Positions 20,606 through 36,581 of a DNA stretch of 64,000 nt are shown piece after piece. How positions within the stretch are numbered: position 1 is the first letter of the stretch; every line of letters begins with the position of its first letter. The notes under the pieces were generated by a model that saw only the letters and a program-made list of their open reading frames with translations, ran no database searches and was not told the DNA's origin. The DNA is from Fibrobacter sp. UWB10 (GTDB lineage Bacteria > Fibrobacterota > Fibrobacteria > Fibrobacterales > Fibrobacteraceae). The position numbers and the translations under genes were made by a program. Location of the stretch: the NCBI RefSeq assembly GCF_900182935.1, contig NZ_FXUE01000001.1, positions 806,001 to 870,000 on the forward strand, written 5' to 3'.

Positions 20606-20627
20606 ACTATCAAAAAAATTCTTACCT

Positions 20628-20664
20628 AGATCCTTCGACGCGCTCCGCTTGCTCAGGATGACAC
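20628..20664. repeat. Interspersed GATCCTTCGAC...AGGATGAC repeat
   Basis: GATCCTTCGACGCGCTCCGC is followed by TTGCTCAGGATGACA. It is an imperfect palindrome with arms ATCCT/AGGAT, in the 65-bp gap between exbD and tonB. Similar sequences occur as dispersed repeats in many gut bacteria (recalled, not searched). Confidence 0.5.
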
Positions 20665-20670
20665 TACGTG

Positions 20671-21075
20671 TCACTCCGCCTGAGCCGCAATCGAAACCTT
20701 TTTCACTCCGGCCAAGTTGCACATGTCAATCACCTGTACCAACACGCCCGTTTCAGCGCCCTTGTCGGCAATCACCACCGCTTCACGATCCGGCGCCTTT
20801 GCAAGCGACTGCTTCAAGATATCCTGCAAACTCGCCAAGTCCACCTGACGTTCGTTCATGTGAATCGTGCCTTCGCGCGTAATGGCAATCAGCAAGTTCT
20901 CTTTTTCGAGCTGGCTTGCAGACTGTGCCTGCGGCTTAGTCACATCCACACCCGTTTCACGCGTAAACGAAGACGTCACCACAAAGAAAATGAGCAAGAT
21001 GAACACGATATCCATCAGCGGGCCCATTTCGATGCCCATGTCTTTCTGCTTTCTTCTCGGCAAATTGAATTCCAT
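20671..21075 (-). CDS. exbD: ExbD/TolR-family proton-channel protein
   Basis: 134 residues. A single membrane helix, MDIVFILLIFFVVTSSF near residues 20-36, carries the conserved Asp that conducts protons, followed by a periplasmic domain. It sits 2 bp after exbB and before tonB. Together with ExbB it forms the inner-membrane motor that energises TonB. Confidence 0.92.
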   Translation of the reverse strand: MEFNLPRRKQKDMGIEMGPLMDIVFILLIFFVVTSSFTRETGVDVTKPQAQSASQLEKENLLIAITREGTIHMNERQVDLASLQDILKQSLAKAPDREAVVIADKGAETGVLVQVIDMCNLAGVKKVSIAAQAE

Positions 21076-21077
21076 AA

Positions 21078-21761
21078 CTAGCCTTCAGCCTTTTCCACAA
21101 AATAGTTTTCAATCACAGTCGCGCCGAGTTCCATCTTCTGGCGCAAAATTTCAACACGTTCATCCAGGCGCTGTTTCAAAAGCGTGAGCGGGAATGCCAC
21201 AAGCAAGCCACTCTGCGTCGAGATCAACGCTTCGGAAATGCCATCAGCCATGAGCACCGGGTTCTGGTTTCCGTAAAGCGTAATCACTTCAAAGGTCGAG
21301 ACCATGCCCGTCACGGTTCCAAGCAAACCCAGGAGCGGTGCGGCCGAGGCCATCACAGACACAATGTGGTTTCCTTGCTCCATGTAGCGCACCGTCTTGG
21401 CAAGGCGCACTTGCATGTAGTCGCGGAACCCTTCAGGATTGTTCTGCGCCACATTGATCGCTTCGCTCAGTTCGCGGCCCAAAAGTCCACCACGCTTGCG
21501 GAGCCTGCGCAACGCCTTTTCGACGCTCGGGGGTTCAGCATTCTTTTCGTATTCTTCGTTACCACCGTTCAAATCAAGACGCATGCGCTTGATGACCCTG
21601 TGAATGTCGGCGCGGAAGAAGTCACTCCCGATGCGGAACCAGCTCGAAAACAGGAAGTAGAATCCGATAACGCCTGCCAAGAGGATCGGGAGCATGACCA
21701 CGCCGCCCGCCTGGTAAGTGTTCTGCAGAGACTCCAGGAATATGTAATGGGTGTTAGACAT
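21078..21761 (-). CDS. exbB: MotA/TolQ/ExbB proton-channel protein
   Basis: 227 residues with the ExbB/TolQ topology. An N-terminal helix (VVMLPILLAGVIGFYFLF) is followed by a cytoplasmic loop and two C-terminal helices, including AAPLLGLLGTVTGMVSTFEV, the family signature. It lies between ttpC-like and exbD genes, separated by a few bases from each. Confidence 0.92.
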   Translation of the reverse strand: MSNTHYIFLESLQNTYQAGGVVMLPILLAGVIGFYFLFSSWFRIGSDFFRADIHRVIKRMRLDLNGGNEEYEKNAEPPSVEKALRRLRKRGGLLGRELSEAINVAQNNPEGFRDYMQVRLAKTVRYMEQGNHIVSVMASAAPLLGLLGTVTGMVSTFEVITLYGNQNPVLMADGISEALISTQSGLLVAFPLTLLKQRLDERVEILRQKMELGATVIENYFVEKAEG

Positions 21762-21767
21762 GCCCGC

Positions 21768-23351
21768 TTACGCTTCCTTCCCGAAAATTCTGTTCAACAG
21801 CGAGGTACTCTGCACATACATTTCACTCGTGACCTTTTCTATCTTTTCGCTCAAAAGGCCGTGCAAAATCATCACCGGAATGGCAATCACAAGGCCCGTT
21901 TCCGTCGTCACCAAGGCTTCGGAAATACCGCCAGCCAAAACGCGTGCGTCGTTCGTGCCGACTTCGGTAATCACGGTAAAGAGCGTAATGATACCGGTCA
22001 CCGTACCGAGCAAGCCAAGCAGCGGAGCAATCGTACCCATGGCAGCCAACAGGCCCATGCGGCGTTCCAATTTCGGCTGTTCACGGAGCATCGCTTCTTG
22101 CAGCGAGCGTTCCGCATCTTCGCGCTTATCGCGGGCACGGTTCAGCACTGCAAACAGCACCAGCGAAAGACTCGTTTCCTTTTTCAGGCAAAGGTTTGCG
22201 GCGTCTTCGTAACGGGATTCCTTGACAAGCGCATTCAGCTTTTTCAGGAAGCGACGGCCCAAATGTCCGCGGAAAGTCAGCACCAAGAAGCGTTCCAAGC
22301 AAAGGAGTAAGGCAAAAATTGCCACCAGCATGAGCGGATACATCACGATACCGCCCTTCTTGAAGAACTCCTTGAACTGTTCAGTCATCGTGAGTTCCTT
22401 GGTATCGGTAATCGCATTCTTGATTGCCTTATTCTGGAGCACATCCAGCGGAATCACGACAGTCGGAGCAGCGCTTTCGCCTGCGGAACCCGCCTGCACC
22501 ACGGCCTGCTTTACGTTACCAGCCATTTCAGGCGGGAGCGTAGCATTCCATTCAAACACCTTACCCTGCAAGGCGCCAGAGCGGAGCAATGCCTGCACAT
22601 CGCCGTTGTCCTGCGCCACTTCGCCGAGGAACACGGTGCCCAAGCGCAAACGATTCACGTTCACATCGGGGCGACTCCCCACCTGTGAAGTTTCGCGGCC
22701 GTAAGACTGCGTGTACGTCAGTTCATGACGGATCAGCAAATCATCCATGTAGCTCTGCACCGCACCAATCGTATTCGGCGTTGCCTTTTCGGCTTCGTTA
22801 GAAGCTTGTTTCAGGCGAATCAAGCGACCATTCATGCCCACCGGGTAATCACCCATGGCATCGCCAAGCGTCTTGTCGATCGAAAGTTTCACCTGCGTAT
22901 TCAATGCATCGTAGGCCGATTCTTCGGACTGAGCCTTTTCTTCAGCTTCTTCGGTCAAGCTCTTGCTTGCCGCGACTTCTTCACTCACGCGGCCAAGATC
23001 TGTCGAAAGCTTGGAATAGCGGGCATCCAGTTCGCGCGAGGCGGCCTGGTGTTCTTCGGTCAGCTGGGATTCGGCATAACGCTTGCGCCAGTGTTCGGCT
23101 TCAAGCTTTTCAAGCGAATCGGCCTTCTGCAGGCGAATGCGAGTCAAAGCCTCTACTTCGCGCTGCAAGTTGCGAACTTCTTCAGTCTGCAGGGAATCCT
23201 TGATTCGAGCCTGGTCTTCGGCAGAGGCCTTGCTTTCGCCCGAACCCGACCACGGCCACGCAAAAGCAGAAGAGGCACACAGCAACAGGGCGACAAAAAA
23301 TCCCTTAAACACTCTCTCGTCTCTCGTCTCTCGTCTTTCGTCTAATCTCAT
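21768..23351 (-). CDS. TtpC-like MotA/TolQ/ExbB protein with coiled-coil N-terminus
   Basis: 527 residues. A signal peptide leads into a long coiled coil (about residues 35-170) and then a TolQ/ExbB domain whose signature is LLAAMGTIAPLLGLLGTVTG. This layout matches TtpC of TonB2 systems, a protein needed in Vibrio for TonB2-dependent iron uptake. The ATG at 23351 overlaps the upstream stop as ATGA. Residues 2-13 (RLDERRETRDER) are encoded by a simple repeat. A GTG at 23312 just after the repeat would give a more usual signal peptide. Confidence 0.87.
   Translation of the reverse strand: MRLDERRETRDERVFKGFFVALLLCASSAFAWPWSGSGESKASAEDQARIKDSLQTEEVRNLQREVEALTRIRLQKADSLEKLEAEHWRKRYAESQLTEEHQAASRELDARYSKLSTDLGRVSEEVAASKSLTEEAEEKAQSEESAYDALNTQVKLSIDKTLGDAMGDYPVGMNGRLIRLKQASNEAEKATPNTIGAVQSYMDDLLIRHELTYTQSYGRETSQVGSRPDVNVNRLRLGTVFLGEVAQDNGDVQALLRSGALQGKVFEWNATLPPEMAGNVKQAVVQAGSAGESAAPTVVIPLDVLQNKAIKNAITDTKELTMTEQFKEFFKKGGIVMYPLMLVAIFALLLCLERFLVLTFRGHLGRRFLKKLNALVKESRYEDAANLCLKKETSLSLVLFAVLNRARDKREDAERSLQEAMLREQPKLERRMGLLAAMGTIAPLLGLLGTVTGIITLFTVITEVGTNDARVLAGGISEALVTTETGLVIAIPVMILHGLLSEKIEKVTSEMYVQSTSLLNRIFGKEA
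23312..23343 (-). repeat. GACGAGA-type simple repeat at the start of the ttpC-like gene
   Basis: CTCTCGTCTCTCGTCTCTCG and flanking units on the plus strand. The sequence matches, in inverse orientation, the repeat at 19791-19815. It encodes a highly charged extension before the signal peptide. Confidence 0.6.
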
Positions 23352-24184
23352 TTTTCACCCCCCACCACAGAAAGGCTTACAGGCAGCTTCACGACCTGAG
23401 GCGGCTTTTTCGCCTGCTTCACGTCGAGCGCGAGCTTTACCGCAGCGCGTTCTTCCAAATTCAAATCTTCGTTCCATTCGTAAACAATCTTGCCGTCCAC
23501 CATCTTGCGTACGAGCATTCCGAAAACGGTGCCGTTGTCGTCGCTGTAAACCATCCACTGGTTACCGATGCGCAGAATCGCCGCGTTAATGAGTTCGCCG
23601 TCTTTACGGGTCAGCGGGCTATTAATGATTGCCACTTCGTCACCGAACTTGGTTTCTTCGGCTACAAGCGACTTTAAGCGAGAAAAGGCTTCTTCTTCGC
23701 TGGCGTTACCGCTTTCGATATCGCGGGTGAGCGATTTGACGCGATCCAGTCTGCTTTCACGTTCCCACGGAAGCGTCTGCGCGACTTGAGCTTCTAAACG
23801 CTTGCTGATGCCGGCGAGTTCTTCGCGCAGAGCCTTACGCTTGGATGCCACATTGTCGCTCTTGTTCTTGGCGCGGGCCTGCTTGTTGCGCTCCGTCTGG
23901 AGTTCGGCAGCCACGTTCTTGATTTTGGCATTCAAGGTATCGATTTCGCTACGGCGACGTTCCGTGTCGGCCTTGTAACGGGCCTGCAACGTCTTGTAAC
24001 GGGAATCGTCCGCCTTGAGCATCGAATCGGTCGAGGCAATCTGGCGGTTCAATTTCTGGATTTCGGAATTCAGCTTGTCTTTTTCAAGCTTCAAATCGCG
24101 AATTTCGGCATCGCGATCGGCAAATGCCACCCCCGAAAGGAGCATCACGACAAGCGTCAACGGTAATAATTTCAGTCGTTTCAT
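23348..24184 (-). CDS. DUF3450 periplasmic protein, first gene of TonB2-like operon
   Basis: 278 residues from the ATG at 24184, which has GGAAAG upstream and suits a transcript starting near 24215. A signal peptide (MKRLKLLPLTLVVMLLSGVAFA) is followed by a long coiled coil and a DUF3450-type C-terminal domain. DUF3450 proteins are regular partners of TtpC/ExbB2/ExbD2/TonB2 clusters; their exact job is unknown. An ECF-type promoter motif lies 38 bp upstream. Confidence 0.82.
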   Translation of the reverse strand: MKRLKLLPLTLVVMLLSGVAFADRDAEIRDLKLEKDKLNSEIQKLNRQIASTDSMLKADDSRYKTLQARYKADTERRRSEIDTLNAKIKNVAAELQTERNKQARAKNKSDNVASKRKALREELAGISKRLEAQVAQTLPWERESRLDRVKSLTRDIESGNASEEEAFSRLKSLVAEETKFGDEVAIINSPLTRKDGELINAAILRIGNQWMVYSDDNGTVFGMLVRKMVDGKIVYEWNEDLNLEERAAVKLALDVKQAKKPPQVVKLPVSLSVVGGEK

Positions 24185-24221
24185 AACTTTCCGCAATAAG
24201 TGAGACATCAAAATTTACATA

Positions 24222-24253
24222 AATAAAACACCCCACCTCGCGAAAAGTGTTAC
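24222..24253 (-). promoter_or_regulatory. ECF-type promoter motif for the DUF3450-ExbB-TonB operon
   Basis: On the minus strand: GTAACACTTTT, 11 nt, GTGTTTTATT. It matches the other three motif copies at identical spacing. The expected transcription start near 24215 leaves a leader of about 30 nt before the ATG at 24184. Confidence 0.72.
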
Positions 24254-24301
24254 CGCAAAAGCAAATTTTTTTATTTTCCCCCACAAGAATTGGAGAAAAT
24301 C

Positions 24302-25435
24302 ATGGATATTAAAAAATTTGGCACATTCAGTGCTATCGCAGCCCTATGTATCTTTACCGCCTGTAGTGACGATGGCTCTAGCAGCCCTATCGATTGGCCC
24401 GGAGAATCAACTCCCCTTGCCGAATGCACAATGCCCGCATTCCTGAAAAAGGGCGACAAGGTTGCCTTAATTTCGCCTTCGTACACCACCCCCGATTCCA
24501 ACATCCAAAAGACCGCCGACGTCATCAAGGAATGGGGATTCACGCCCGTTATCGGCAAGAACGTAGGCAAACTTGAAGCAGGCAAATACGCCGGCACCGC
24601 CGAAGAACGCGCCAAGGACTTTATTACCGCCCTCAAGGACACAAGCATCAAGGCAATCCTTGCCAACCGCGGCGGCTACGGCACCATCCAACTGGTGGAC
24701 CTCATTGACCCGAAACTTGTGAAAAAGAACCCCAAGTGGCTTATTGGCTATAGCGACATCACCACGCTGCACGCCATGCAGACCAAGGCAGGCGTCATGA
24801 GCATTCACGGCACCATGAGTTCAAGCATTGCAAAGACCGCTGGCAAAGACGACAACAGCTCACTCCTGCGCGACTTGCTCAAGGGCGAAGTGCCGACTTA
24901 CAAGGTTCCCAAGCACAAATACAACCAGAAGGGCAAAGCCGAGGGCATTCTCGTAGGCGGCAACATGACCACCTTCGTGCCGCTCATCGGCACAAGCGAC
25001 ATCGATATTTTCCAAAACGACGGAATCATCTTGTTCATGGAAGAAATCGGCGAAAACCTGCGCAACATCGACCGCATGTTCCATTCTATTGAACTGCACG
25101 GCGTCATGGAAAACGTGCGCGGCGTGATTCTCGGTGAATTTGTAGATTCCGGCACCGATCTCGATTATGAAAGCACCGAAGCTATGCTTTCAAGCTACCT
25201 CAAGAAATATGACATTCCTGTGATGTGCGGATTCCCTGCCGGTCACGACGACGTAAACTTACCGCTCGTCATGGGTGCTAAAGTCGAGATGAACGTAACC
25301 GACAAAGGCGCTACACTCGCCTTCGATATCGATGGCAAAACCAAAGATATCGATACAGACAAACTCACAAACAAGACCACCCTTTCGAAGGCAATTCGCC
25401 TGATGCTTTCGGGTAAGATTTTCAATATCAACTAA
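24302..25435 (+). CDS. LD-carboxypeptidase (peptidase S66) lipoprotein
   Basis: 377 residues from the ATG at 24302, with GGAG 6 nt upstream. The N-terminus is a lipoprotein signal (LCIFTAC, lipidated Cys21). The S66 triad is visible as Ser in GYSDITT near 151, Glu in FMEEIGEN near 245 and His in AGHDDVNLP near 313. S66 enzymes cleave the L,D bond of murein tetrapeptides, usually in the cytoplasm, so an envelope-anchored member is somewhat unusual. It is divergent from the DUF3450 operon. Confidence 0.88.
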   Translation: MDIKKFGTFSAIAALCIFTACSDDGSSSPIDWPGESTPLAECTMPAFLKKGDKVALISPSYTTPDSNIQKTADVIKEWGFTPVIGKNVGKLEAGKYAGTAEERAKDFITALKDTSIKAILANRGGYGTIQLVDLIDPKLVKKNPKWLIGYSDITTLHAMQTKAGVMSIHGTMSSSIAKTAGKDDNSSLLRDLLKGEVPTYKVPKHKYNQKGKAEGILVGGNMTTFVPLIGTSDIDIFQNDGIILFMEEIGENLRNIDRMFHSIELHGVMENVRGVILGEFVDSGTDLDYESTEAMLSSYLKKYDIPVMCGFPAGHDDVNLPLVMGAKVEMNVTDKGATLAFDIDGKTKDIDTDKLTNKTTLSKAIRLMLSGKIFNIN

Positions 25436-25456
25436 ACTGCAGACTAAAGCAGATCG

Positions 25457-27103
25457 TTACTGGCATTTCATATGACCATCTTTCTTTTTATCACACCAGT
25501 TATCGCAAATAACGGGGTGGTAATGGTCACATATTTCCTGAACTTCGCGCTTGATGATGCTTGACTTTTGTTCCGTAAGATAGTAGCGACTCACCAAAGC
25601 GCTCTGGCATTGTTCTGTATTAGGCCAATCACGGTCAGCGCACCAAGCCCACAGATAATCCTTGCAGTAGTTTTCTTCTGGGCTCACAATGCACAGCTGG
25701 TACAAGTTGTAGCAATCGGCAATCTTATTGTTTTCGAAGTTGCTCGCCACGCAGTAGCGTTTAAGGCCATCGGCGTAGGCATTGGACTTGTCTTCATCAT
25801 GAATGGTATCGGGCAGGAACAAGGACCACTTGGTGGTATCAAGCATCATGGCGGCCTTCACGTTCGAGGCAAAACATTCTTCATTATGCCGGCTATAGAC
25901 AGTATCCCGATATTCTTCGTAAGCATGCTTGTTCAGGCTCACCAAATCATTCGACAACCATGAGCTAGGCTCAATTCCCGCGCAGTAAACATCTTGATAA
26001 AGCCTGCACCCCTTGGAATCCCAGCTGTCCGAAAGGTCACCCTCGGTATTATAGCAATTATGGTGCGCAATATGTTTCATATTCACGCCGTCGCCGTTGA
26101 CATGCAATACAATCGTCGACTTTGCCATTCCGCTAAACACACCCATACCATTTTCAATATTCGATTCAGGCACAATTCGCGAGTCGCTTACTGATTGCTT
26201 CACCCTGTCGATATAGTCAATGTAGGCCGCATCGGTTGAATAGAAATCTACCGAAATATCCCCAAGCGGCATCATCATGTTCATCAGATAAAGCGTATCC
26301 AGCGCATAATAGTCGGCAACCCTGCGGTTCGAGGTATAGCCTAAATTTTCAGCATTTTCCAAAGGATCGTGAATCGCAATACCACGATAACCTTGATCGT
26401 CTTCGTCGGTAAAGCCCTTAAGCATTTCATTAATCGTGGTATTCTGCGACTCGGCATTTTCCATGCCATAGTTCATCACCGATATGACGCCCTTGACAGT
26501 TCTATCGTAATCCATGGCACACTTCACGAAGTCCATGTCCATGGGGTATTCTAAGAATTCTATTTCAAACCTAGGATTTTTTTCATCGTAGGGAATCCAC
26601 TTGTAGCTACCATCTTGCTGGGGCGAATTCAGGCCCTTGACGCTTACCGGGTTCGGAATGGTCGCTTCTGCCTTGTAACGAGATTTTGCCTTGTGGCCCG
26701 AGCTGTCCCATTCAAAGTAGGCTTCTAGTTTGTAGGTTTCTCCAACAACGCCCTCGTAATTATTGCCATAAAAGCAATTCGGCTTGTCACTATAAGGGCG
26801 CAAGACAACAGTCGTATCCGCTTCGTCGACATTGCTGTAATGACTATCGAAATGGCCCGACACCGTTACGTAGGCGCTGTCATAAAACGCGAAACTTTCT
26901 GCAGCCGTTTCATCAAGTTCGTAAACCTTCGAAAAGCAGACATAAGGAGTTTCACCACTGATAACGTAGCCGTAGGTATAAATTCCCGTGTACACGTCGC
27001 GCTTTTCAGGATAGTAATCCCATGGGCCGTGAAAATCACTACAGGCCGCAAGGAACATTGCAGCCAAAAGCCATGAGCAACGAATTGCAAGTTTAGTCTT
27101 CAT
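25457..27103 (-). CDS. Large hypothetical lipoprotein
   Basis: 548 residues from the ATG at 27103, with AAGGA upstream. The lipoprotein signal is LLAAMFLAACSDF. The body has an early beta-rich section and a C-terminal half rich in Cys pairs (for example CADRDWPNTEQC). I do not recognise the family. DUF4249-like Bacteroidetes lipoproteins are similar in general style. It carries its own ECF-type promoter motif and so belongs to the proposed regulon. Confidence 0.7.
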   Translation of the reverse strand: MKTKLAIRCSWLLAAMFLAACSDFHGPWDYYPEKRDVYTGIYTYGYVISGETPYVCFSKVYELDETAAESFAFYDSAYVTVSGHFDSHYSNVDEADTTVVLRPYSDKPNCFYGNNYEGVVGETYKLEAYFEWDSSGHKAKSRYKAEATIPNPVSVKGLNSPQQDGSYKWIPYDEKNPRFEIEFLEYPMDMDFVKCAMDYDRTVKGVISVMNYGMENAESQNTTINEMLKGFTDEDDQGYRGIAIHDPLENAENLGYTSNRRVADYYALDTLYLMNMMMPLGDISVDFYSTDAAYIDYIDRVKQSVSDSRIVPESNIENGMGVFSGMAKSTIVLHVNGDGVNMKHIAHHNCYNTEGDLSDSWDSKGCRLYQDVYCAGIEPSSWLSNDLVSLNKHAYEEYRDTVYSRHNEECFASNVKAAMMLDTTKWSLFLPDTIHDEDKSNAYADGLKRYCVASNFENNKIADCYNLYQLCIVSPEENYCKDYLWAWCADRDWPNTEQCQSALVSRYYLTEQKSSIIKREVQEICDHYHPVICDNWCDKKKDGHMKCQ

Positions 27104-27124
27104 CGGGTCCTTCAAATTTACATA

Positions 27125-27156
27125 ATTAAAACACCCGACAAGCACAAAAGTGTCAC
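27125..27156 (-). promoter_or_regulatory. ECF-type promoter motif for the 548-aa lipoprotein
   Basis: On the minus strand: GTGACACTTTT, 11 nt, GTGTTTTAAT. The expected transcription start near 27118 gives a 15-nt leader that contains the AAGGA ribosome site and the ATG at 27103. Confidence 0.75.
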
Positions 27157-27227
27157 CCGCCGCAAAAATAATCCAAAAAAAAGAACCGCACCTTTTACAG
27201 TGCGGCTCGCAAACATATCTATCCGGC

Positions 27228-28637
27228 TTATCCGAAAATCTTGGCGCAGAGTTCCGGCGCAAACTTGGAAAGGTATCCCTGAATCAAGAGGATTGAAACG
27301 AGAGCCGGCAAAATCCACTTGAAGTAGATTCTGAAGGCGGCATTGTACGGGATCTTGTAACCCTTACCGGCGTTCATTTCGGTGAAAAACTTTTCCTGAC
27401 CCCAACCGTAGCGACTGGAGCAGAAGATGGCGATGAACATACCGCCGGCCGGGAGCATGGTGTTGCTCACGATAAAGTCTTCGAGGTCCAGAACGCAGCT
27501 GCCAGGACCGAAGGGTTCAAAGCCCGAAAGCATGTTGAAGCCAAGGGCACAGGGGAGCGAAAGCAGGAACACAATCAGGATGTTCCAATAGGCGACCTTG
27601 CGGCGCTTGAATCCCTTGAGGTCCATCCAGAACGACACCAGGTTTTCGAAAACGGCAATCAAGGTAGACATGGCAGCAAACGACATGAACAGGAAGAATG
27701 CGGCACCGAAGAATCTACCGGCAGGCATCATGGCGAACACGTTAGAAAGCGTCACGAAGATAAGGCCCGGGCCCTGACCAGGAGACTGGTTGAAGGCAAA
27801 GCAGCTGGGAATCACGATAATGCCTGCGACCAAGGCAACGACTGTATCAAGAACGCAGACGCTTGTGGCTTCTTTTGCCAGGGAATGATTTTTTCCGATG
27901 TAGCTACCGAAAATAGCCATGCTACCGATACCGAGGCTCAAGGTAAAGAAGGCGTGTGCGAAGGCGGCAAAGATAGCCTCGCCCAGGCCCTTGCCCGATT
28001 GCGTAAGACGTTCTAGTGACGGCAACAGGTAGAATTCGAGACCGGCCGTAGAACCGGGGAGCGTCACGGCGCGAACCGCGAGGATCACCATAATGACAAG
28101 CAAGCAGATCATCATGGTCTTGGTGATGCGTTCCACACCCTTCTGGAGGCCAAGCGACACGATAAAGAGACCAATGACAATGGCAACCGTCATCCAGAAA
28201 ATCATGAGGCCCGGATTTGAAAGCATTTCACCGAAGCCAGCAGCAATCTGATCCGGAGTACCCATGAGGAACTTGGGGTCGGTAACCATCTTGTAGAAGT
28301 AATAGAACATCCAGCCGGTCACCACCGAGTAGAAGGCCATCAAAATGTAGTTGGCCGAAATCAGCGGAAACTTGGCCCAATGCCACTTGGTACCCGGCTT
28401 TTCCAAGTTGTCGAAAGCGCGAGCGATACCGCTCTTACCTCCACGACCCAAAGCAAGTTCTGCCATCAAGATGGGCAGACCCAAGAAGAGCAAGAAGCCG
28501 AGGTACGGGAGCACAAAGGCCGCTCCACCATACTGGCCAGCAATGTAAGGGAAACGCCACACGTTGCCCAGGCCAATGGCGCAACCGGCGGCAATGAGGA
28601 TAAATCCGAGTCTTGATTTAAAGGTTTCGCGTTCCAT
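27228..28637 (-). CDS. Sodium:neurotransmitter-symporter (SNF) family transporter
   Basis: 469 residues, about 12 membrane helices. The LeuT-fold signature is at the N-terminus: RLGFILIAAGCAIGLGNVWR then FPYIAGQYGGAAFVLPYL. Members import amino acids or related compounds with Na+. Substrate cannot be read from sequence. No Shine-Dalgarno lies next to the ATG; instead the start codon is inside a 9-bp inverted repeat. Confidence 0.92.
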   Translation of the reverse strand: MERETFKSRLGFILIAAGCAIGLGNVWRFPYIAGQYGGAAFVLPYLGFLLFLGLPILMAELALGRGGKSGIARAFDNLEKPGTKWHWAKFPLISANYILMAFYSVVTGWMFYYFYKMVTDPKFLMGTPDQIAAGFGEMLSNPGLMIFWMTVAIVIGLFIVSLGLQKGVERITKTMMICLLVIMVILAVRAVTLPGSTAGLEFYLLPSLERLTQSGKGLGEAIFAAFAHAFFTLSLGIGSMAIFGSYIGKNHSLAKEATSVCVLDTVVALVAGIIVIPSCFAFNQSPGQGPGLIFVTLSNVFAMMPAGRFFGAAFFLFMSFAAMSTLIAVFENLVSFWMDLKGFKRRKVAYWNILIVFLLSLPCALGFNMLSGFEPFGPGSCVLDLEDFIVSNTMLPAGGMFIAIFCSSRYGWGQEKFFTEMNAGKGYKIPYNAAFRIYFKWILPALVSILLIQGYLSKFAPELCAKIFG

Positions 28638-28680
28638 AGTAGCTAAACTATAGAAAAATCCTATCGTCCTTGCTACTATG
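28635..28680 (-). promoter_or_regulatory. Leader inverted repeat enclosing the SNF start codon
   Basis: CATAGTAGC (28672-28680 on the minus strand) and GCTACTATG (28643-28635) are exact complements. The second arm contains the ATG. An AAGGA lies just inside the first arm, too far upstream to serve this ATG. Possible translational control; position-based inference. Confidence 0.35.
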
Positions 28681-28692
28681 TTATCCTAGTTT

Positions 28693-31221
28693 CTAGAAAT
28701 AATATTCGAAATTGAGCATAACAGGCAGGAACGGGAACTGCGTAATCTCCGTTTTTTCAGGAGGATTCTTGCTCGTATCGTAGAATGTATAGAACATGTT
28801 TTCGTGATCGGTCAAGTTGATGATCGTCCAACTAAAGTTCCACTTGCCTTCGCGACCAATATCAATCGGCTTCACATCGATACGGAAGTAATCGGATTGG
28901 CGAGCACCATTGCGGCTACCCGGCAGCACAATCGTTTGGTCGGAATACTGCTGGCGACCCATTTCCTGCGACACATAATATCCCTTATATTCGCTAATTG
29001 GCATACCCGCAGAATACTTCATAATCACAGAAGAACGGAAGAATCGTCCCGGCACTTTATGCTTGCGGCGAGCGTCGTCTCCGCCAGACCAGTTAATGCC
29101 CAAATCCATCTTGAGAGCGTAAGGCTGATGCCAACTCGGATAATACGGCTTGGTACCATCGTCCGTTTTCATGACGCTAATGCTTTGGCTCCAGTTAATA
29201 CCGCCAAACCACCAGCCTTTATCTTTACGGAGCGAAAGTTCATAACCGAAGGAATAACCTTCCGCCGTTCCGAATCCGTCGGCCACCACAAAGTCGTCCG
29301 AGGTCGTTTCTTCGTTACTGTCAAGCACGGCAACAAACGTGTTCAAGTTGCTTTGCGTCTTGTAGTAAACGCCGACAGTCGCATCGTAATCGTCAAAGAT
29401 TCCACGCTGGCTATATTCCGCTGCGAACAGCCAAGAAGAAGCGGGATCAATATGCTTGCCCTTGGTAGTTGTCGTTGCCGGATAATAGAATTCATTCAGA
29501 GTTTCCTGGTCCGTGTAGACAATCGAATTCAAGTATTGCAGGTAATAGCCACCGTAGAATTCCAATGTTTTTTCGTCATCAATATTGATTGTCAAAGAGG
29601 CACGCGGTTCTACGCCAAAATGTTCCGCCGCGGTCTGGTAATTAAAGCGAAGGCCGTATTGCAACAGGTAATCGGGAGAAATCTTCCAGGCATCTTGCAG
29701 ATAAGCCACATGGTGGAACGGTTTCTGAATGTCGGCCACGCTAATGGTAGACATCTGTTCTTGATAACGTTCATAGTCGTATTCCAGTTCGTATCCGGCA
29801 GTCAACGTATGATTCGGAATGCCACGATAATTGACCCACTGCTTGCCCGCGAAGGTGTAAAGGAACATCTCGATAGACATGAGGTCGCTAATTTTCATAG
29901 TCTGGTAGAATTCGCTGAAAGCAAACGTTGCGTTATAATCCCAGTCGCCATTAAAGCGGTGGTAGAATCCAAGCGGAACGGCAATGTTTCCCCAGTCCAT
30001 ATAAAGCGGGTCAAAACTTAAGCGGTCTTTACCGACATAGAAACTCAACTTCATGCGAGTGTCATCGGTAAAGTTGTACATGAAGGTTCCCTGCAAGTCG
30101 GTAAATTCGTAATCCAAATCCAGGTCAAGAACACCGAGCATGTTCATCAAGTCGAGCATGTAGCCAATGTAGGTCGTACGGCCTGCCACCACCCAGCGAG
30201 CGGGGCCCTTGTGGCCTTCGGTATGCAACTGCGCGGCAAAGGTACTGATTTTTGCACTCCACTTACTGAACCATTCTTCAACCGTATCTTGGCCACCGGC
30301 GCGGCCATCCATCTTGAGCACGGAACTCAAGCGGTTACCATACTGCGCCGGGAATCCACTCTTGTAGAACTGCACATCGTCAATGCCTTCGACCAAGAAC
30401 GTACTGAAAAGCCCGAAGAAATGCACCGGCGAATAAACGACGGCGTTGTCGAACAAGAACAGGTTCTGGTCGGCGGCGCCACCGCGCACGTAAATCTTGG
30501 AGCTAAAATCGGAACTTGCCACCACACCCGGAAGCGCCTGGATGCTCTTGATTACGTCGGCTTCGGCAAGACTCGGCATGCGCTTGATAGATTTTGCAGA
30601 CACCACAGATTCGCCGGGTTTGCGCTTGGGGCGACGGCGCAGTTGCACCACGACTTTCTTGAGTTCGGTAACCTTGGCGTTGTCGCCGCTAGCGAGGAGC
30701 GCATCGACATCGATGTCTTGCTTTGCAGAATCTTGCGCCAGCGTATCGGGGCGTTGCGGGGCGTCAGCCTCGCTAGAAGGGGTAGCGGATGCCGTGTCAG
30801 CGGCAGAAGCGAGGGGAAGGCTTGCCCCTTCCACTGTAGAATCGGGTTCAGCGAAAGCTTCGCCGAGAGTCTGCGAGAAACTGCGTTCGGCACCAATGTA
30901 CTTGAGTTCGTAGCATTTTTCTTTTTCGGCGCCCGCGGTGTCGGAATTGGTGACGCACACGTTCCAGAGGGTGTCTTCGGGAAGCACGATGCTAAAAGGC
31001 GTGCCCACGGTCGTCTGCAAAGCTTCGCCCGATTCCAAAATTTCGACATTGAGTTTTTCACCCGCGGCAAAAGAAGAATCCTGAACGATTCCGTTAAAGG
31101 TGATCCCCTGGGGTGCAAGCGAATCGGGCACAGGTTCTTGTGCCACAGCGGCTACACACAGCATAGCCAGCAACAAAGCAAAAATTTGAATATAACGTTT
31201 CAAAAAAAATCTCGCGTTCAA
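28693..31221 (-). CDS. TonB-dependent outer-membrane receptor
   Basis: 842 residues from a TTG; a second in-frame TTG six codons on is possible. A signal peptide (IFALLLAMLCVAAVAQ) is followed by a carboxypeptidase-like early domain, a plug domain (AEADVIKSIQALPGVVASSD, then KIYVRGGAADQN) and a long beta-barrel ending in LNFEYYF. It takes up an unknown ligand, presumably energised by the TonB2-like operon nearby. Residues of about 130-157 are encoded by an interspersed repeat and are low complexity. Confidence 0.9.
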   Translation of the reverse strand: MNARFFLKRYIQIFALLLAMLCVAAVAQEPVPDSLAPQGITFNGIVQDSSFAAGEKLNVEILESGEALQTTVGTPFSIVLPEDTLWNVCVTNSDTAGAEKEKCYELKYIGAERSFSQTLGEAFAEPDSTVEGASLPLASAADTASATPSSEADAPQRPDTLAQDSAKQDIDVDALLASGDNAKVTELKKVVVQLRRRPKRKPGESVVSAKSIKRMPSLAEADVIKSIQALPGVVASSDFSSKIYVRGGAADQNLFLFDNAVVYSPVHFFGLFSTFLVEGIDDVQFYKSGFPAQYGNRLSSVLKMDGRAGGQDTVEEWFSKWSAKISTFAAQLHTEGHKGPARWVVAGRTTYIGYMLDLMNMLGVLDLDLDYEFTDLQGTFMYNFTDDTRMKLSFYVGKDRLSFDPLYMDWGNIAVPLGFYHRFNGDWDYNATFAFSEFYQTMKISDLMSIEMFLYTFAGKQWVNYRGIPNHTLTAGYELEYDYERYQEQMSTISVADIQKPFHHVAYLQDAWKISPDYLLQYGLRFNYQTAAEHFGVEPRASLTINIDDEKTLEFYGGYYLQYLNSIVYTDQETLNEFYYPATTTTKGKHIDPASSWLFAAEYSQRGIFDDYDATVGVYYKTQSNLNTFVAVLDSNEETTSDDFVVADGFGTAEGYSFGYELSLRKDKGWWFGGINWSQSISVMKTDDGTKPYYPSWHQPYALKMDLGINWSGGDDARRKHKVPGRFFRSSVIMKYSAGMPISEYKGYYVSQEMGRQQYSDQTIVLPGSRNGARQSDYFRIDVKPIDIGREGKWNFSWTIINLTDHENMFYTFYDTSKNPPEKTEITQFPFLPVMLNFEYYF
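30751..30832 (+). repeat. Interspersed repeat, copy B, inside the receptor gene
   Basis: It shares the three blocks of copy A (14693-14775) in the same order. Here it lies in frame within the region between the early domain and the plug of the TonB-dependent receptor, encoding an Ala/Ser/Pro-rich stretch. In-frame insertion of a repeat is inferred. Confidence 0.65.
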
Positions 31222-31227
31222 ATTAAA

Positions 31228-31257
31228 AATAGCAAATAGGAATCCCTATTTGCTATT
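31228..31257. promoter_or_regulatory. 13-bp inverted repeat overlapping the receptor promoter
   Basis: AATAGCAAATAGG and its exact complement are separated by 4 nt. The distal arm overlaps the last bases of the -10-like element, so the expected transcript would begin inside the repeat. It could be a repressor operator or a 5'-end RNA hairpin. The other three motif copies lack it. Confidence 0.5.
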
Positions 31258-31286
31258 GTAACACTATAAGGAGCAAAAAGTGTCAC
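31255..31286 (-). promoter_or_regulatory. ECF-type promoter motif for the TonB-dependent receptor
   Basis: On the minus strand: GTGACACTTTT, 11 nt, GTGTTACAAT. The two elements are identical to those before the ECF sigma gene. It lies between the metacaspase stop and the receptor start and overlaps the inverted repeat at 31228-31257 by 3 bp. Confidence 0.8.
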
Positions 31287-31293
31287 TTGTTTT

Positions 31294-33705
31294 TTAGAAT
31301 TTTCCGACGGTAATGGCGGCATAGAATCCAGGCCACCAACGACCCCTGTGCTTTTTACTGCCGAAATCGTCGTGGTATTCAGCCAGCGGCTGCAGCCACA
31401 GTTTGTCAGCATAGCCGATGGTTGCCCAGTTGAGAGTCCCGCCAACCGAAAGGCCAAGGAAGGGAACAATCTGGCTCGTGTAGCCCAAGCGCAGACGATG
31501 GTGGAAGTTTGATTCACCCTCATCTGTGAATTCAACATCCCATTCATCACAGTCCCCATCGTACTTCACTTTCGAAGTTTGTGCCGTCAAGAACATGTAT
31601 TCCAATTCAAAGTGGCTTCCGTATTTACCGAACTGGGTTCCAATACCTATACCCGATTCATATATATCGCTAAATTCCTTGAAGTCCGAATCTTTTTCAA
31701 TCAAGCGTGCACCTTCGATTGCCGTGAACAGGTAAGGTGTACCCATGTGGAACGAAAGACCGAATGCGCCCATTTCATTCATAGAAGCGGTCACGCTCCA
31801 CACGCCATTACCGACAATGTTGATCAAACCGATCGGAGATTTTTCGCAGTAACCGCAAAAGTTCACCACACCAACCTGACGTCCCTTCGCTTTTCCGGTA
31901 ATGTTCAGAACACCCACCTGAGCGTCATCAACCTTGCCAGCGATATTCAAGACAGAGGCCTGCACATCAGATTCTCCGGCAATGTTCAACGCGGCAGTTG
32001 CCTGAACGTCGGACTTTTTCGCAATATTAATGGCACCCGATGCCTGCAGACTAGATTCGCCAGCAATGTTTATCGCGCCGCTAGCCTGCACATCGGATTT
32101 GCCGGCAATGTTCAGCGCAGCAGTTGCCTGCACCTTTGTTTGACGAGCCAAGTTGCCTGCAGCAGAAATCTGCATACCGGACAAGGAATCGCCTGCATAG
32201 TTAGCCGTTGCCGAAACCTGCACACCCGAAGACTTTTCCTTGGTTGCATTTACAACAGGAGAGATCTGGATGCCGTCAAAAGATTTGGCATAGTTCATCG
32301 TAGCCGAAATCTGTGCACCTTCAAAGTGTTCACGAGCGCCGTTGAAAACTGTCGTCAGCTGCATACCGTGCATTTCTTTGCGAGCAATATTGGCAAACAA
32401 GCTCACCTGAGAACCAAGCATATAGCTATCGCTCTTTGCTACGAACACACCCATTTGCAAGCCCTTGCGAGGTTCCCTTTCTCTGTCGACCAGGTTAAAC
32501 GTCACACGGTGTTTTCCGTTTTTATCCAGAGAATCCAGAGAGTATTCCACTGAATCGGGGCGGGAGTCGTTCTTGATTTCGCCACGGAGAGCCGTCTTTT
32601 CGGCAGCCACCTTGGTGAACTGCTTTTGAGAAAGGCGAGCGTGGTTGTTGTCATACAAGGTCACCGAAGCTTCCTTGAATTCAGCAGGGCGTTCCAGGCG
32701 AACGTTATACTTACCGGCAGGGAAACCTAGGCTCATTGCGCGGCCCGGCTTCTTGAAAAGTTCGGCAACAAGTTCACCCTTGTCATCGCGAATGAACAAG
32801 TGACCGTCAAGATCTTCATCGAGTTCAAGGCCTGCGCTTGTGCTGCGCAAATCGGTCATGACCACATCACCCGTACCGGCCAAGTTCATATCGCGGCTCG
32901 GATGCTGAGCGCCACCCATCGTAGCTTCAGTCTTCTGCAAAGTTTCATTGAAGGCGAACTGGTAAGCTTCAGAAAGAGTCACCTTGCCATCGCCACTCAC
33001 ATCGCCTGCGCCACGAAGGCCGCTCACTAGCGAATGCGTAAAGAAAGAACCTCTGAGCTTATCGCTTTCTTGGCTAGATTCATCTTGCGTGCTGCTGGTA
33101 ATGAAGGCATAACCCTTCATATCGCTGCTCTTGTCGACCATGAACGCAGGCACTGCGACACCGCCCTTCACGCGGGTAATGGCACCCGAGCCACAAGCAT
33201 CAATCACAGCAATCTTCACGTCGGCATGCAAGGCGTCCACACGCTTGCGGAATTCCTTCCAACTGTAAATTTCTTCACCGAGGCGCAGTCCCTTTTCGTC
33301 GGCGTGGCCACTATAGTAAACAAGAACTTCTTCGCGGGTTTCGTTATTCTTGGAACCCTTCGCTGCAGCAAGCTTCTTGTCGAGTTCATCAAGTTGAGCT
33401 TGCAAACCAGACACGCTCGGTTCAGTCACGCGATAAACATTCTGTTTGGGCACGCCACCCATTTGCGAAAGCACGTTCGCAAAGGCGCGGGCATCGCTTT
33501 CAGCATAACGCAAGCGCGGGCGTTCCTTACCGCCGTTATTGGCGCTCACGGCAAACACGTAACGATTGATTGCAATTTCACCGGAATTAGTAGCAGCACG
33601 AGCATTAGTTGCAGCGGCCAAAATCGCTACCAGGCACACCAGGCAAAAAATAGCCGAGCCCGACAGAAAATCGCAGAATAAAATCTTTTCCAAAATCTTC
33701 TTCAT
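31294..33705 (-). CDS. Metacaspase-like (C14) protein with surface repeats and barrel
   Basis: 803 residues. A membrane or signal segment is followed by a caspase-type domain with the His in YYSGHADEKG near 135 and the Cys in DACGSG near 168. An EF-hand-like loop, DVSGDGKVTLSE, is near 235. Residues of about 415-630 hold about a dozen repeats of 14-17 residues (QASGAINIAGESSL and relatives), as in LA_2272-type surface-repeat proteins. The C-terminus is aromatic and beta-rich and ends ITVGKF, like an outer-membrane barrel. It is the third gene after ECF sigma and anti-sigma. The fusion places a protease-like domain at the cell envelope. Confidence 0.85.
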   Translation of the reverse strand: MKKILEKILFCDFLSGSAIFCLVCLVAILAAATNARAATNSGEIAINRYVFAVSANNGGKERPRLRYAESDARAFANVLSQMGGVPKQNVYRVTEPSVSGLQAQLDELDKKLAAAKGSKNNETREEVLVYYSGHADEKGLRLGEEIYSWKEFRKRVDALHADVKIAVIDACGSGAITRVKGGVAVPAFMVDKSSDMKGYAFITSSTQDESSQESDKLRGSFFTHSLVSGLRGAGDVSGDGKVTLSEAYQFAFNETLQKTEATMGGAQHPSRDMNLAGTGDVVMTDLRSTSAGLELDEDLDGHLFIRDDKGELVAELFKKPGRAMSLGFPAGKYNVRLERPAEFKEASVTLYDNNHARLSQKQFTKVAAEKTALRGEIKNDSRPDSVEYSLDSLDKNGKHRVTFNLVDREREPRKGLQMGVFVAKSDSYMLGSQVSLFANIARKEMHGMQLTTVFNGAREHFEGAQISATMNYAKSFDGIQISPVVNATKEKSSGVQVSATANYAGDSLSGMQISAAGNLARQTKVQATAALNIAGKSDVQASGAINIAGESSLQASGAINIAKKSDVQATAALNIAGESDVQASVLNIAGKVDDAQVGVLNITGKAKGRQVGVVNFCGYCEKSPIGLINIVGNGVWSVTASMNEMGAFGLSFHMGTPYLFTAIEGARLIEKDSDFKEFSDIYESGIGIGTQFGKYGSHFELEYMFLTAQTSKVKYDGDCDEWDVEFTDEGESNFHHRLRLGYTSQIVPFLGLSVGGTLNWATIGYADKLWLQPLAEYHDDFGSKKHRGRWWPGFYAAITVGKF

Positions 33706-33715
33706 GACATCCCCC

Positions 33716-34492
33716 TTATTTTCCCACCTTGCGAAGCGTGAACGAAACCGTTTCCACTCCGTTCTGCTTCAAACTCTTGTCGATATCGTTTCCGTCAACC
33801 GTAAAGGATTTTTCGGACGTAAGCAAGAAGAACTTTTCGAATTTCGGCGCATTGTCGAGCTTGTAGGCAAACGGAAGCGTCGTCATTTTGCCGGGTTCCA
33901 GTTCAATGGCACTATTGCCCTCGCCCATGTGCATGGTGATGGTTCCGTTGCCATCCATACTCAAGAGCATGCCAAAGCATTTTTGCGGAACGCGATAGCG
34001 CAGCTGGATTTCGTCGCCTTCGTAGGCGTTGCCCAGGTTCACCATTTGCACGGCGCTGTCGCCCATCTTTTTCCAAACTTCAAGCGAAGCCTGCATACCC
34101 TTGATGCGCGTGCCGTCATCGGTGTTAGCCATGGCCACTTCCATCGAAGCGGAATCGCGGTCATAAGTAGCAACGTCGCGGTTCAACACAACCACCGAGA
34201 ATATGCCAAGAGCAATCACAAGCGCCGCGGCAACCTTAAGCCACAAGCCACTCACCTGATTGCGAGAAACGTCAGCGATACGACCATCTACGGCGTCCAT
34301 ACGGTCTGCAAGTGCTTCAAACGGATTTTCCGCCACAAAGCGCTTGCCCTGTTCACGCATTTCGGCCACGCGGGCAGCAAAAATTTGATCTTCGGCTTCG
34401 CGCTGTTGCAAAGCCTTCATTTCACTTTCCGGAAGTTCCCCGAGTAGGTAACGTTCCAGTTTGAAATCGGAAATTTTATTGACGGTAGTCAT
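33716..34492 (-). CDS. Membrane anti-sigma-factor-like protein
   Basis: 258 residues. A cytoplasmic N-terminal segment of about 80 residues (ERYLLGELPESEMKALQQ) is followed by one membrane helix (LWLKVAAALVIALGIFSVVV) and a periplasmic domain of about 150 residues resembling DUF4384-type domains. The ATG overlaps the sigma-factor stop as ATGA. Gene order and topology fit an anti-sigma factor holding the adjacent ECF sigma. No known zinc anti-sigma motif is seen. Confidence 0.75.
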   Translation of the reverse strand: MTTVNKISDFKLERYLLGELPESEMKALQQREAEDQIFAARVAEMREQGKRFVAENPFEALADRMDAVDGRIADVSRNQVSGLWLKVAAALVIALGIFSVVVLNRDVATYDRDSASMEVAMANTDDGTRIKGMQASLEVWKKMGDSAVQMVNLGNAYEGDEIQLRYRVPQKCFGMLLSMDGNGTITMHMGEGNSAIELEPGKMTTLPFAYKLDNAPKFEKFFLLTSEKSFTVDGNDIDKSLKQNGVETVSFTLRKVGK

Positions 34493-34992
34493 CTTTCAAC
34501 CTCCAGATTCTTGATTTTGGCCTGCAGGGTACGTAAACGCTTGCGCACTCCGCTCACCGAAAGTCCAACGGTTTCAGCAGTTTCTTCCAAAGTCATGCCG
34601 TCTACATAATGCAGCGTCGCAATCGTTCGGGTCGATTCCTGCTCCTTCGAGAAAATCTTTGCCAAAATTCCGCTGGCTTCGTGGCTGTCATCTTCTTCGG
34701 CGCAGGCGATGGTGAGCAAAAGTTCGCTCGAATCGCAGTCCAATCCGCGGCGTTTCTTGTCGCGAATGCGGTTCAGGCAGAGCCTGGTCGCCGTATTCCA
34801 CAGCAAGCTCGACGGCTGTGACAAATCCAGGGAATCCACGCGTTCATACACGCGCAAGAACACGTTCTGAACCATGTCCTTGGCTTCGGCATCGTCCTTG
34901 AGCAAAAAGACACAACGCCTGTACACCATCGGGGCGAACGCCTCGTACAGTTTCGAAAATGCCATGCGATCAAGGAGATTTTTCCCGTTCAT
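34489..34992 (-). CDS. ECF-type RNA polymerase sigma factor
   Basis: 167 residues with region 2 (LYEAFAPMVYRRCVFLLKDD, DMVQNVFLRVYERV) and region 4 (LHYVDGMTLEETAETVGLSV, SGVRKRLRTL). It starts the operon of sigma, anti-sigma and metacaspase. The promoter motif ends 4 nt before this ATG, so the transcript may be leaderless, or the true start may be the internal ATG at 34965 (MAFSKLYEAF). It probably activates its own promoter and three others. Confidence 0.9.
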   Translation of the reverse strand: MNGKNLLDRMAFSKLYEAFAPMVYRRCVFLLKDDAEAKDMVQNVFLRVYERVDSLDLSQPSSLLWNTATRLCLNRIRDKKRRGLDCDSSELLLTIACAEEDDSHEASGILAKIFSKEQESTRTIATLHYVDGMTLEETAETVGLSVSGVRKRLRTLQAKIKNLEVER

Positions 34993-34995
34993 ACC

Positions 34996-35027
34996 ATTGT
35001 AACACTAGAGGAAGTTAAAAGTGTCAC
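34996..35027 (-). promoter_or_regulatory. ECF-type promoter motif for the sigma-factor operon
   Basis: On the minus strand: GTGACACTTTT, 11 nt, GTGTTACAAT. It directly precedes the sigma gene, as expected for an autoregulated ECF sigma factor. Confidence 0.8.
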
Positions 35028-35044
35028 CGCAAATTTAAAAAAAT

Positions 35045-35076
35045 AGTAGGAAGTAGACAGTAGGCAGTAGGAAGTG
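35045..35076. repeat. AGTAGGAAGTAGACAGTAGG simple repeat
   Basis: Degenerate copies of AGTAGGA/AGTAGACAGT lie between the ECF promoter and the terminator downstream of the FKBP gene. No function is evident. Confidence 0.5.
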
Positions 35077-35096
35077 GTTAGAGATTAGCCGAATGA

Positions 35097-35126
35097 GAAA
35101 AAAATGAGCCCCGCTTGCGCGGGGCA
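35097..35126 (-). terminator. Intrinsic terminator of the FKBP gene
   Basis: GCCCCGC/GCGGGGC hairpin with a 4-nt loop, followed on the minus strand by TCATTTTTTTC. It lies about 35 bp past the FKBP stop. Confidence 0.8.
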
Positions 35127-35159
35127 ATATCCGTATAAATATTTAGCAAACGCCAGTTT

Positions 35160-36062
35160 TTACTTCTTGGGAGCGGGCTTTGCAGCTTCGGCAGGCTTGG
35201 CTTCCGGCTTTTTCTCTGCCGGCTTAGCTTCGGCCTTGGCCGGTTCAGCAGCAGGAGCGGCTGCAGGGGCTACGGGCACGGCAGTGCTGTCAACAGCAGG
35301 CACTTCAGCATAAACCTTCAAAAGCTCCACTTCGAACACGAGCATTGCATTCGCCGGAATCATCGGCGGCACGCCTGCTTCACCGTAGGCCAAGCCACTG
35401 GGAATCCAGGCCTTCACCTTCATGCCTTCCTTCATCATCTGGAGCAAATCTTGCCAGCCTTCAATCACGGCACTCACCGGGAATTCCAGCGGTTCACCGC
35501 GCTTCACGCTATTGTCGAATTCCGTGCCGTCAAGCAGCGCGCCAATATAGTGCACCTGAACCTTGTCGCTCACCTTGGGAACAAGGCCCGTACCTTCCTT
35601 AAGAATCTTGTACTGCACACCCTTCGGAGTCAGCTTGATGGTAGAATCCTTCGCGTTCTTGGCAAGGAATTCCTTCTGTTCATCAAGCGCCTTCTGGGCC
35701 TGAGCCTTTTCGTCGGATTCCTTCTTCTTCTGCATCTGCAGCAACAAATCCTGCAAGGCAGATTCAGCGGTAGAATCGGTCATTTGCACCGGGCGGTCTG
35801 CATCCACCTGGTCCTTGATTGCGCCCATGAGCACATCCATATTCAGCGGCACGTTCACATTGGCAATAGCCTTGCCCAAATCCATACCCAGCGCATAGCT
35901 GTAACGGTCTGTCGGGTTGTTCATGTCAGGCAATGCAGACTTAGATACGGCCGTGGTATCAGCCTGGGCTTCAGGATCCACAGCAGGCTTTTGACCACCA
36001 CCACAAGCAACGAAAATACCCAAAATAGGCAGAACAGCATAAAAATTTGGCTTGAATTTCAT
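35160..36062 (-). CDS. FKBP-type peptidyl-prolyl isomerase lipoprotein
   Basis: 300 residues. The lipobox is LGIFVACGG. An FKBP N-terminal dimerisation segment (YSYALGMDLGKAIANVNV) is followed by the catalytic FKBP domain (VQVHYIGALLDGTEFDNS, GWQDLLQMMKEG, WIPSGLAYGEAG). A 45-residue Ala/Pro/Lys tail ends the protein. It probably helps fold periplasmic or outer-membrane proteins. Confidence 0.92.
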   Translation of the reverse strand: MKFKPNFYAVLPILGIFVACGGGQKPAVDPEAQADTTAVSKSALPDMNNPTDRYSYALGMDLGKAIANVNVPLNMDVLMGAIKDQVDADRPVQMTDSTAESALQDLLLQMQKKKESDEKAQAQKALDEQKEFLAKNAKDSTIKLTPKGVQYKILKEGTGLVPKVSDKVQVHYIGALLDGTEFDNSVKRGEPLEFPVSAVIEGWQDLLQMMKEGMKVKAWIPSGLAYGEAGVPPMIPANAMLVFEVELLKVYAEVPAVDSTAVPVAPAAAPAAEPAKAEAKPAEKKPEAKPAEAAKPAPKK

Positions 36063-36297
36063 TTTAACCTTTTGAAAATCAGTGATTTACGACACACTAA
36101 AAAGTAGAAAACGTAAGGAGGAACGGAGCGTGAACACTTTTTAGAACAATCTTTTTGACCTAAAAAGTACAAAATTCCGATTTCACAAAACAATTTTTAA
36201 ACAAAAATTGCCGTTTTTAGCAAAATTTCACAGCTTTTATCCAAACAGACAACAACTTTATTTACACAAATGCAGTAAACAGGGGTTTACAAAGGGG

Positions 36298-36326
36298 TTG
36301 CACGAACAGCTTTTTGTTACTAAATT
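36298..36326 (+). promoter_or_regulatory. Sigma-70-like promoter of the 73-aa gene
   Basis: TTGCAC and TAAATT are separated by 17 nt, 34 bp before the ATG at 36360. The remaining sequence between the FKBP and 73-aa genes (36063-36297) is AT-rich with no other feature seen. Confidence 0.5.
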
Positions 36327-36359
36327 TACATATAAGAGTGAGAAAAATAAGGAAATTGT

Positions 36360-36581
36360 ATGAACTACCGTTTCAAAAATTTCATCAACTCGGCCTCTGC
36401 CAACAAGCAAGCTTTCGACAATTCCATCGAAAGTGTTCGCAGCTCGTTGGATAACATGGTCAGCACGAGCAGCGCTCCTGTGGTGCCGAGCCCTGCCAAG
36501 ACTGGTTGGCTTAAGGGTTCTCTTTCCTACCCGTGGGTGATCGTTTGCTCCTTGGTTCCGTCTCTCAAGGACATGTTCTAA
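36360..36581 (+). CDS. Small hypothetical protein (73 aa) with own promoter and terminator
   Basis: The ATG follows AAGGA. The product begins MNYRFKNFINSASANKQAFD, has a Ser/Pro-rich middle and ends in a short hydrophobic segment (YPWVIVCSLVPSLKDMF). No family recognised. A promoter-like sequence ahead and a strong terminator behind make it an independent, probably well-expressed transcript. It could be a small membrane-associated protein. Confidence 0.6.
   Translation: MNYRFKNFINSASANKQAFDNSIESVRSSLDNMVSTSSAPVVPSPAKTGWLKGSLSYPWVIVCSLVPSLKDMF

Follow-up and report, generated by a model that had tools for sequence, protein, structure and literature searches.

Within a 64-kb stretch of the genome of Fibrobacter sp. 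UWB10 (64,000 nt, hereafter the window), we describe a two-part 32-bp element, GTRACACTTTT-N11-GTGTTWYAWT, that is very probably the promoter read by the extracytoplasmic function (ECF) sigma factor encoded at 34489–34992. The motif is almost confined to a small set of envelope genes and the sigma gene itself, and the motif, its targets, their conservation and the operon structure are established at the level of sequence. We would place these findings among the known kinds of ECF system, as a variant with a new promoter type and regulon. The elements in the window and the sigma gene are as follows.

34996–35027, minus strand: sigma-operon promoter element, GTGACACTTTT-N11-GTGTTACAAT (exact motif; conserved upstream of the sigma gene in relatives)
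31255–31286, minus strand: TonB-dependent receptor promoter element (exact motif)
27125–27156, minus strand: DUF4249-type lipoprotein promoter element (exact motif)
24222–24253, minus strand: DUF3450–TonB operon promoter element (exact motif)
34489–34992, minus strand: ECF sigma factor, 167 amino acids, regions 2 and 4 (Pfam, NCBIfam)

All four copies in the window are exact, on the minus strand, and at the coordinates reported in an earlier note on this DNA. Each lies about 80 nt or less upstream of a same-strand gene start, in the orientation claimed there, a placement that only 2.5% of strand positions share over the first 36 kb. No further copy with up to three mismatches was present in the 64 kb searched (shuffle expectation 0.02). 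The genome-wide scan that the note had proposed returned five exact copies in 3.48 Mb, every one preceding a gene; across the same 3.48 Mb there were 0 copies with one to three mismatches and 0 matches to a reversed-pattern control. The many random copies away from gene starts that the note had named as evidence against its proposal therefore did not appear. Spacers of 9–13 nt were also allowed genome-wide and gave the same five sites with N11 only, in agreement with the fixed 11-nt spacing first described. Variable spacing was accordingly rejected, and a shorter spacer was seen only at loci L192 and L198 in relatives. The fifth copy (C1:694335–694366, outside the window) precedes an FMN-reductase-like gene; this target, the leaderless arrangement, the receptor 5′ hairpin and the phylum-wide distribution described below are additions to the earlier note.

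To place these sites in the genus, we surveyed 80 Fibrobacter genomes using a slightly looser pattern together with a reversed-pattern control. The pattern was present in 74 of the 80 (168 sites by table sum), and the control gave 0 matches in every genome. A site occurred in 71 of the 73 genomes with the sigma gene compared with three of the seven without it (Fisher p 3e-4, kinship ignored), and the two sigma-bearing genomes that lacked a site had near-matching elements in the right place. For 67 sites, most of them not upstream of the sigma gene, we identified the gene that follows, and all 67 were correctly oriented before a gene start. These genes comprised receptors (26), DUF3450 operons (18), FMN-reductase-type flavoproteins (nine long and four short), DUF4249-type lipoproteins (four), sigma factors (three), HXXEE proteins (two) and a YbjQ protein (one). 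Many target sites are on contigs other than that of the sigma gene, which points to shared regulation rather than to one duplicated island. At L155:3404–3531 (G026), a tandem pair of motifs 96 nt apart precedes a single receptor gene. Three genomes (G024, G027 and G029; loci L154, L156 and L157) carry the motif before DUF3450 or receptor genes, and neither the sigma nor the caspase gene was found in them.

A strict pattern with the same type of control was then applied to 60 further genomes of the phylum, of which 20 contained sites (control 0). In sister genera the genes preceded by the motif are those for sigma, DUF3450, receptor and DUF4249-type proteins and, in eight instances, a free-standing caspase gene that lies apart from the sigma operon and has its own motif copy. 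Phylum genomes with only distant sigma homologues were almost entirely without the motif. The presence of the motif before the same families at unlinked positions, the free-standing caspase included, supports the co-control of receptor, energiser, lipoprotein and caspase that the earlier note had proposed.

The shape of the motif was examined in 174 distinct sites picked by a relaxed pattern, so that the letters on which the selection rested are necessarily constant. These sites have a left element [GA]GTRACACTTTY, a right element GTGTTWNA and A/T-rich upstream sequence, with a start-to-start spacing of 22 bp, which is close to classical ECF geometry. Some copies are perfect dyads that match both strands (20 of 174), as would be expected if a dimeric transcription factor contacted GTAACAC-N15-GTGTTAC as an operator, at half-sites separated by two helical turns, and no sigma promoter were involved. 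However, TTTY occurs only after the left half, the A at position 30 (99%) has no mirror image, and the right half is free beyond GTGTT; this asymmetry favours a promoter over a dyad operator. The constant orientation relative to the gene and the fixed distance to the sigma start codon are also at odds with an operator, which we rejected on the asymmetry of the motif and regard as very unlikely. An even smaller, indeed negligible, probability is attached to the view that the copies are non-functional products of recent intergenic duplication. Although four of them lie within 11 kb, only the two elements are conserved while the 11-bp spacer and the flanks differ between copies and genomes, and the motif is retained at orthologous promoters of different genera and found nowhere else in the genome. 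Sequence comparison thus refutes this explanation.

A promoter of this form could also be read by some other sigma factor of the cell, either another ECF factor or the housekeeping one, with the adjacent sigma gene being just one target. The seven genomes that have a site and no detectable sigma orthologue would fit such a scenario, but the five sites in the UWB10 genome are far too few for a housekeeping sigma factor. The distribution of the motif also tracks this sigma factor within the genus, and the genomes with only distant homologues are nearly motif-free. ECF self-promoters are, moreover, the usual route by which the motifs of these factors are found. We therefore consider a different reader quite unlikely, and favour recognition of the element by the sigma factor encoded beside it.

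The sigma protein has Pfam matches to region 2 (3.9e-12) and region 4_2 (1.5e-6), and its NCBIfam sigma70-ECF score is 74.7 bits against a cut-off of 42.9. It has the make-up of an ECF factor, namely regions 2 and 4 without region 1.1 or 3 and a length within ~150–200 amino acids. Its relatives in a homologue search were nearly all from Fibrobacter, the closest being labelled F. succinogenes. The motif copy upstream of the gene is kept in orthologues down to ~45–55% sigma protein identity, and this retention upstream of divergent orthologues supports the autoregulation suggested earlier; sequence conservation likewise indicates an autoregulatory promoter with -35 and -10 elements. Self-activation appears to be conserved across several families of the phylum. 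Several sigma paralogues occur in one genome in a more distant family (L195–L198; G104, G087); in three of the four loci read there the -35 side is altered (GTAACAAA-like) with GTGTT and the start-codon distance retained, and L198 combines a one-base-shorter spacer with a poor left half. Divergence of promoters among sister sigma factors is possible in this case.

Only 3 nt separate the second element of the sigma-gene copy from the start codon. Counted from the first base of GTGTT, a start codon is found at a distance of 13 nt in 66 of 71 sigma loci, and in 16 loci that codon is the sole candidate within the first 20 codons. At L192, from a distant relative, the spacer is one base shorter, yet the distance from GTGTT to the start codon is still 13 nt, as expected if the transcription start fixes that distance. 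In sister genera this geometry recurs at the free-standing caspase genes, where the start codon is 35 nt after the motif start. Taking the expected transcription start as 5–9 nt after the second element, this geometric argument suggests that sigma transcription probably starts at the start codon or within 3 nt of it, and the 13-nt distance points to a probably leaderless, self-activated sigma mRNA.

Two further genes lie downstream of the sigma gene in its operon.

33716–34492, minus strand: probable membrane anti-sigma factor, 258 amino acids, with helical bundle, transmembrane helix and periplasmic beta-sandwich (model; NCBIfam below cut-off)
31294–33705, minus strand: caspase-domain (C14) protein, 803 amino acids, containing a repeat region and, at the C-terminus, a predicted outer-membrane barrel (Pfam, model)

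The first of these genes overlaps the sigma gene by 4 nt. The structural model of its product has a confident N-terminal helical bundle, a single membrane helix and a periplasmic beta-sandwich, and on this basis the 258-amino-acid protein is a probable membrane anti-sigma factor; its NCBIfam anti-sigma match falls below the cut-off. The second product corresponds to what the earlier note had called metacaspase-like; it has a Pfam C14 match (4.5e-11) and a His-Cys dyad, His134 and Cys171, that is invariant in 29 of 29 caspase homologues. One part of its model resembles metacaspase and caspase folds and another resembles eight-stranded outer-membrane barrels (E ~1e-3 to 0.1). Given this likeness to barrels, the caspase protein is probably exported and anchored in the outer membrane. 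The sigma, anti-sigma and caspase genes are clustered in many relatives beyond the genus.

The remaining targets in the window are a receptor, a lipoprotein and a six-gene operon, in which we recovered the DUF3450-TtpC-ExbB-ExbD-TonB-TPR order described before.

31231–31254, minus strand: hairpin of 10 bp with ATTTTT behind it, adjoining the -10 element, where the receptor mRNA is predicted to begin (covariation)
28693–31203, minus strand: TonB-dependent receptor with Plug domain, start codon uncertain (Pfam)
25457–27103, minus strand: lipoprotein, 548 amino acids, weak DUF4249 match (Pfam)
23348–24184, minus strand: DUF3450 protein, TtpB-like (Pfam)
21768–23351, minus strand: long MotA/TolQ/ExbB protein, TtpC-like
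21078–21761, minus strand: ExbB
20671–21075, minus strand: ExbD
19958–20722, minus strand: TonB, C-terminal domain match
18722–19903, minus strand: TPR protein, in the position of TtpD

The lipoprotein had been listed simply as large; it does follow a motif copy, and its family is now refined to the weak DUF4249 match. The listed GTG start of tonB overlaps exbD, and the true start may be further in. Between the targets lie two genes without the motif, a sodium symporter family gene (27228–28637) and an S66 peptidase gene (24290–25435, plus strand).

The receptor copy of the motif is flanked by the caspase stop codon on one side and by a terminator-like hairpin on the other. Across 15 genomes, 98.7% of the hairpin pairs form, with six compensatory cells; 0 of 500 shuffles scored as high, and slid controls gave 41–51%. 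The hairpin is retained at receptor genes distant from the caspase gene, indicating that it is more than a terminator of the sigma operon, and it is absent at L147, L156 and L158. Most TonB-receptor transcripts should, from the position of the promoter, begin with this covarying hairpin, which could act in 5′-end protection or as an attenuator. An Rfam scan of 22000–36500 gave no match.

Some observations weigh against the proposed regulon or are weak points of it. The fifth target is a weak point, since its gene (L122; G000 C1:691000–694900) is frameshifted about halfway relative to the G042 orthologue. G024, G027 and G029 keep one site each with no sigma gene detected, and as G029 is rated 99% complete, another sigma factor or a recent loss is possible; G125, G127, G130 and G152 also have a site and no detected sigma gene. 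L011 (405–500), an assembly of the same species, has 16 bp duplicated in tandem immediately behind the sigma ATG; the duplication shifts the frame to an early stop and breaks the leaderless reading frame, and may reflect natural loss, a later start codon in use or an error of assembly. The main conclusion stands despite the frameshifted target, the sites in genomes with no detected sigma gene and this duplication. Lastly, a fold search with the anti-sigma model gave no strong match, only weak Ig-like hits to the periplasmic domain (E >1e-3).

Under the favoured reading of the element as the promoter of the adjacent sigma factor, the co-transcribed anti-sigma factor would hold the sigma factor at the membrane until a periplasmic or surface cue frees it. 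The freed sigma factor would direct RNA polymerase to its own operon, creating positive feedback and also yielding more anti-sigma factor and exported outer-membrane caspase-like protein. The genes for the TonB receptor, the DUF4249-type lipoprotein and the DUF3450-TtpC-ExbB-ExbD-TonB-TPR energiser would be transcribed by the same means, as would those for FMN-reductase-type flavoproteins in many genomes. Levels of the receptor, the lipoprotein and the energiser would then rise together, and the regulon likely forms an on-demand module for outer-membrane uptake and maintenance. The flavoprotein targets carry CX2CX2CX5-7C motifs, which we take to be like those of iron-sulfur flavoproteins and which would fit metal or redox stress as the cue. 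A further and unlikely scenario places the outer-membrane caspase within the signalling chain, where it would sense or execute cleavage of the anti-sigma periplasmic domain in a sigma pathway rebuilding TonB-dependent transport, while the leaderless sigma mRNA would sustain the loop when normal translation initiation is limited. If this were true, a caspase-type protease would stand in for the usual site-1 protease.

The arrangement resembles RpoE-RseA and SigW-RsiW in having a sigma factor with regions 2 and 4 only, an overlapping gene for a probable membrane anti-sigma factor, a predicted self-promoter and a two-element promoter of ~22 bp start to start; SigW is the only solved chain matched by sequence to the Fibrobacter sigma factor. 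It differs from both systems in its elements (GTRACACTTTY and GTGTTWNA instead of GGAAC and a GTC-type element), in the sigma start codon at the predicted transcription start and in the predicted outer-membrane caspase of the operon. With FecI-FecR-FecA it shares the linkage of an ECF sigma factor and a (here probable) membrane anti-sigma factor to a TonB-dependent receptor. However, the receptor had a Plug domain as its only Pfam match, with no STN domain, and no FecR domain was found by Pfam in the probable anti-sigma protein, so FecIR-type signalling was rejected; the fecI promoter is controlled by Fur (PMC9249621), whereas the Fibrobacter sigma factor would promote its own operon. The energiser has the same six-gene order as Vibrio TonB2 (TtpB2-TtpC2-ExbB2-ExbD2-TonB2-TtpD2), with a DUF3450 protein first and an extra downstream gene last. 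The Vibrio operon has a Fur box and a predicted promoter upstream (PMC6957404), whereas the first gene in Fibrobacter carries an ECF-type element. A survey of metacaspase–sigma-70 operons names Fibrobacter among its genomes (PMC3501461), and the passages located in it deal with operon content, not with a promoter or regulon; the Fibrobacter caspase described here is tied to TonB transport and has a predicted outer-membrane location. A TonB/ExbB/ExbD cluster raised on cellulose, FSU_2400–2403 (PMC6851124), could not be matched to the DUF3450–TonB operon and, being listed with two ExbD-type entries, may be a different cluster.

Our literature search found no paper joining Fibrobacter succinogenes and ECF sigma factors, and none on Fibrobacter, sigma factor and promoter that was, by title, about Fibrobacter sigma factors. 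The results provide a predicted promoter code and a compact regulon for a phylum with no ECF-sigma paper in that search, in a host that is a fibre-digesting gut bacterium. They also link a bacterial caspase homologue, a class whose roles are largely unknown, to outer-membrane receptors and to the system that energises them, by way of the promoters they share, and this tie to TonB transport opens its function to testing. A reporter could be built on a motif of such specificity, and with promoter and start codon at an invariant distance, the sigma gene offers a clear case, easy to test, for a leaderless mRNA that has been conserved.

A minor observation concerns the DUF3450 and DUF4249 promoters: a TATGTAANTTTG-like sequence directly follows the element at 24210–24221 and 27113–27124, does so before the DUF3450 and DUF4249 genes in many genomes, and is perhaps an overlapping second promoter.
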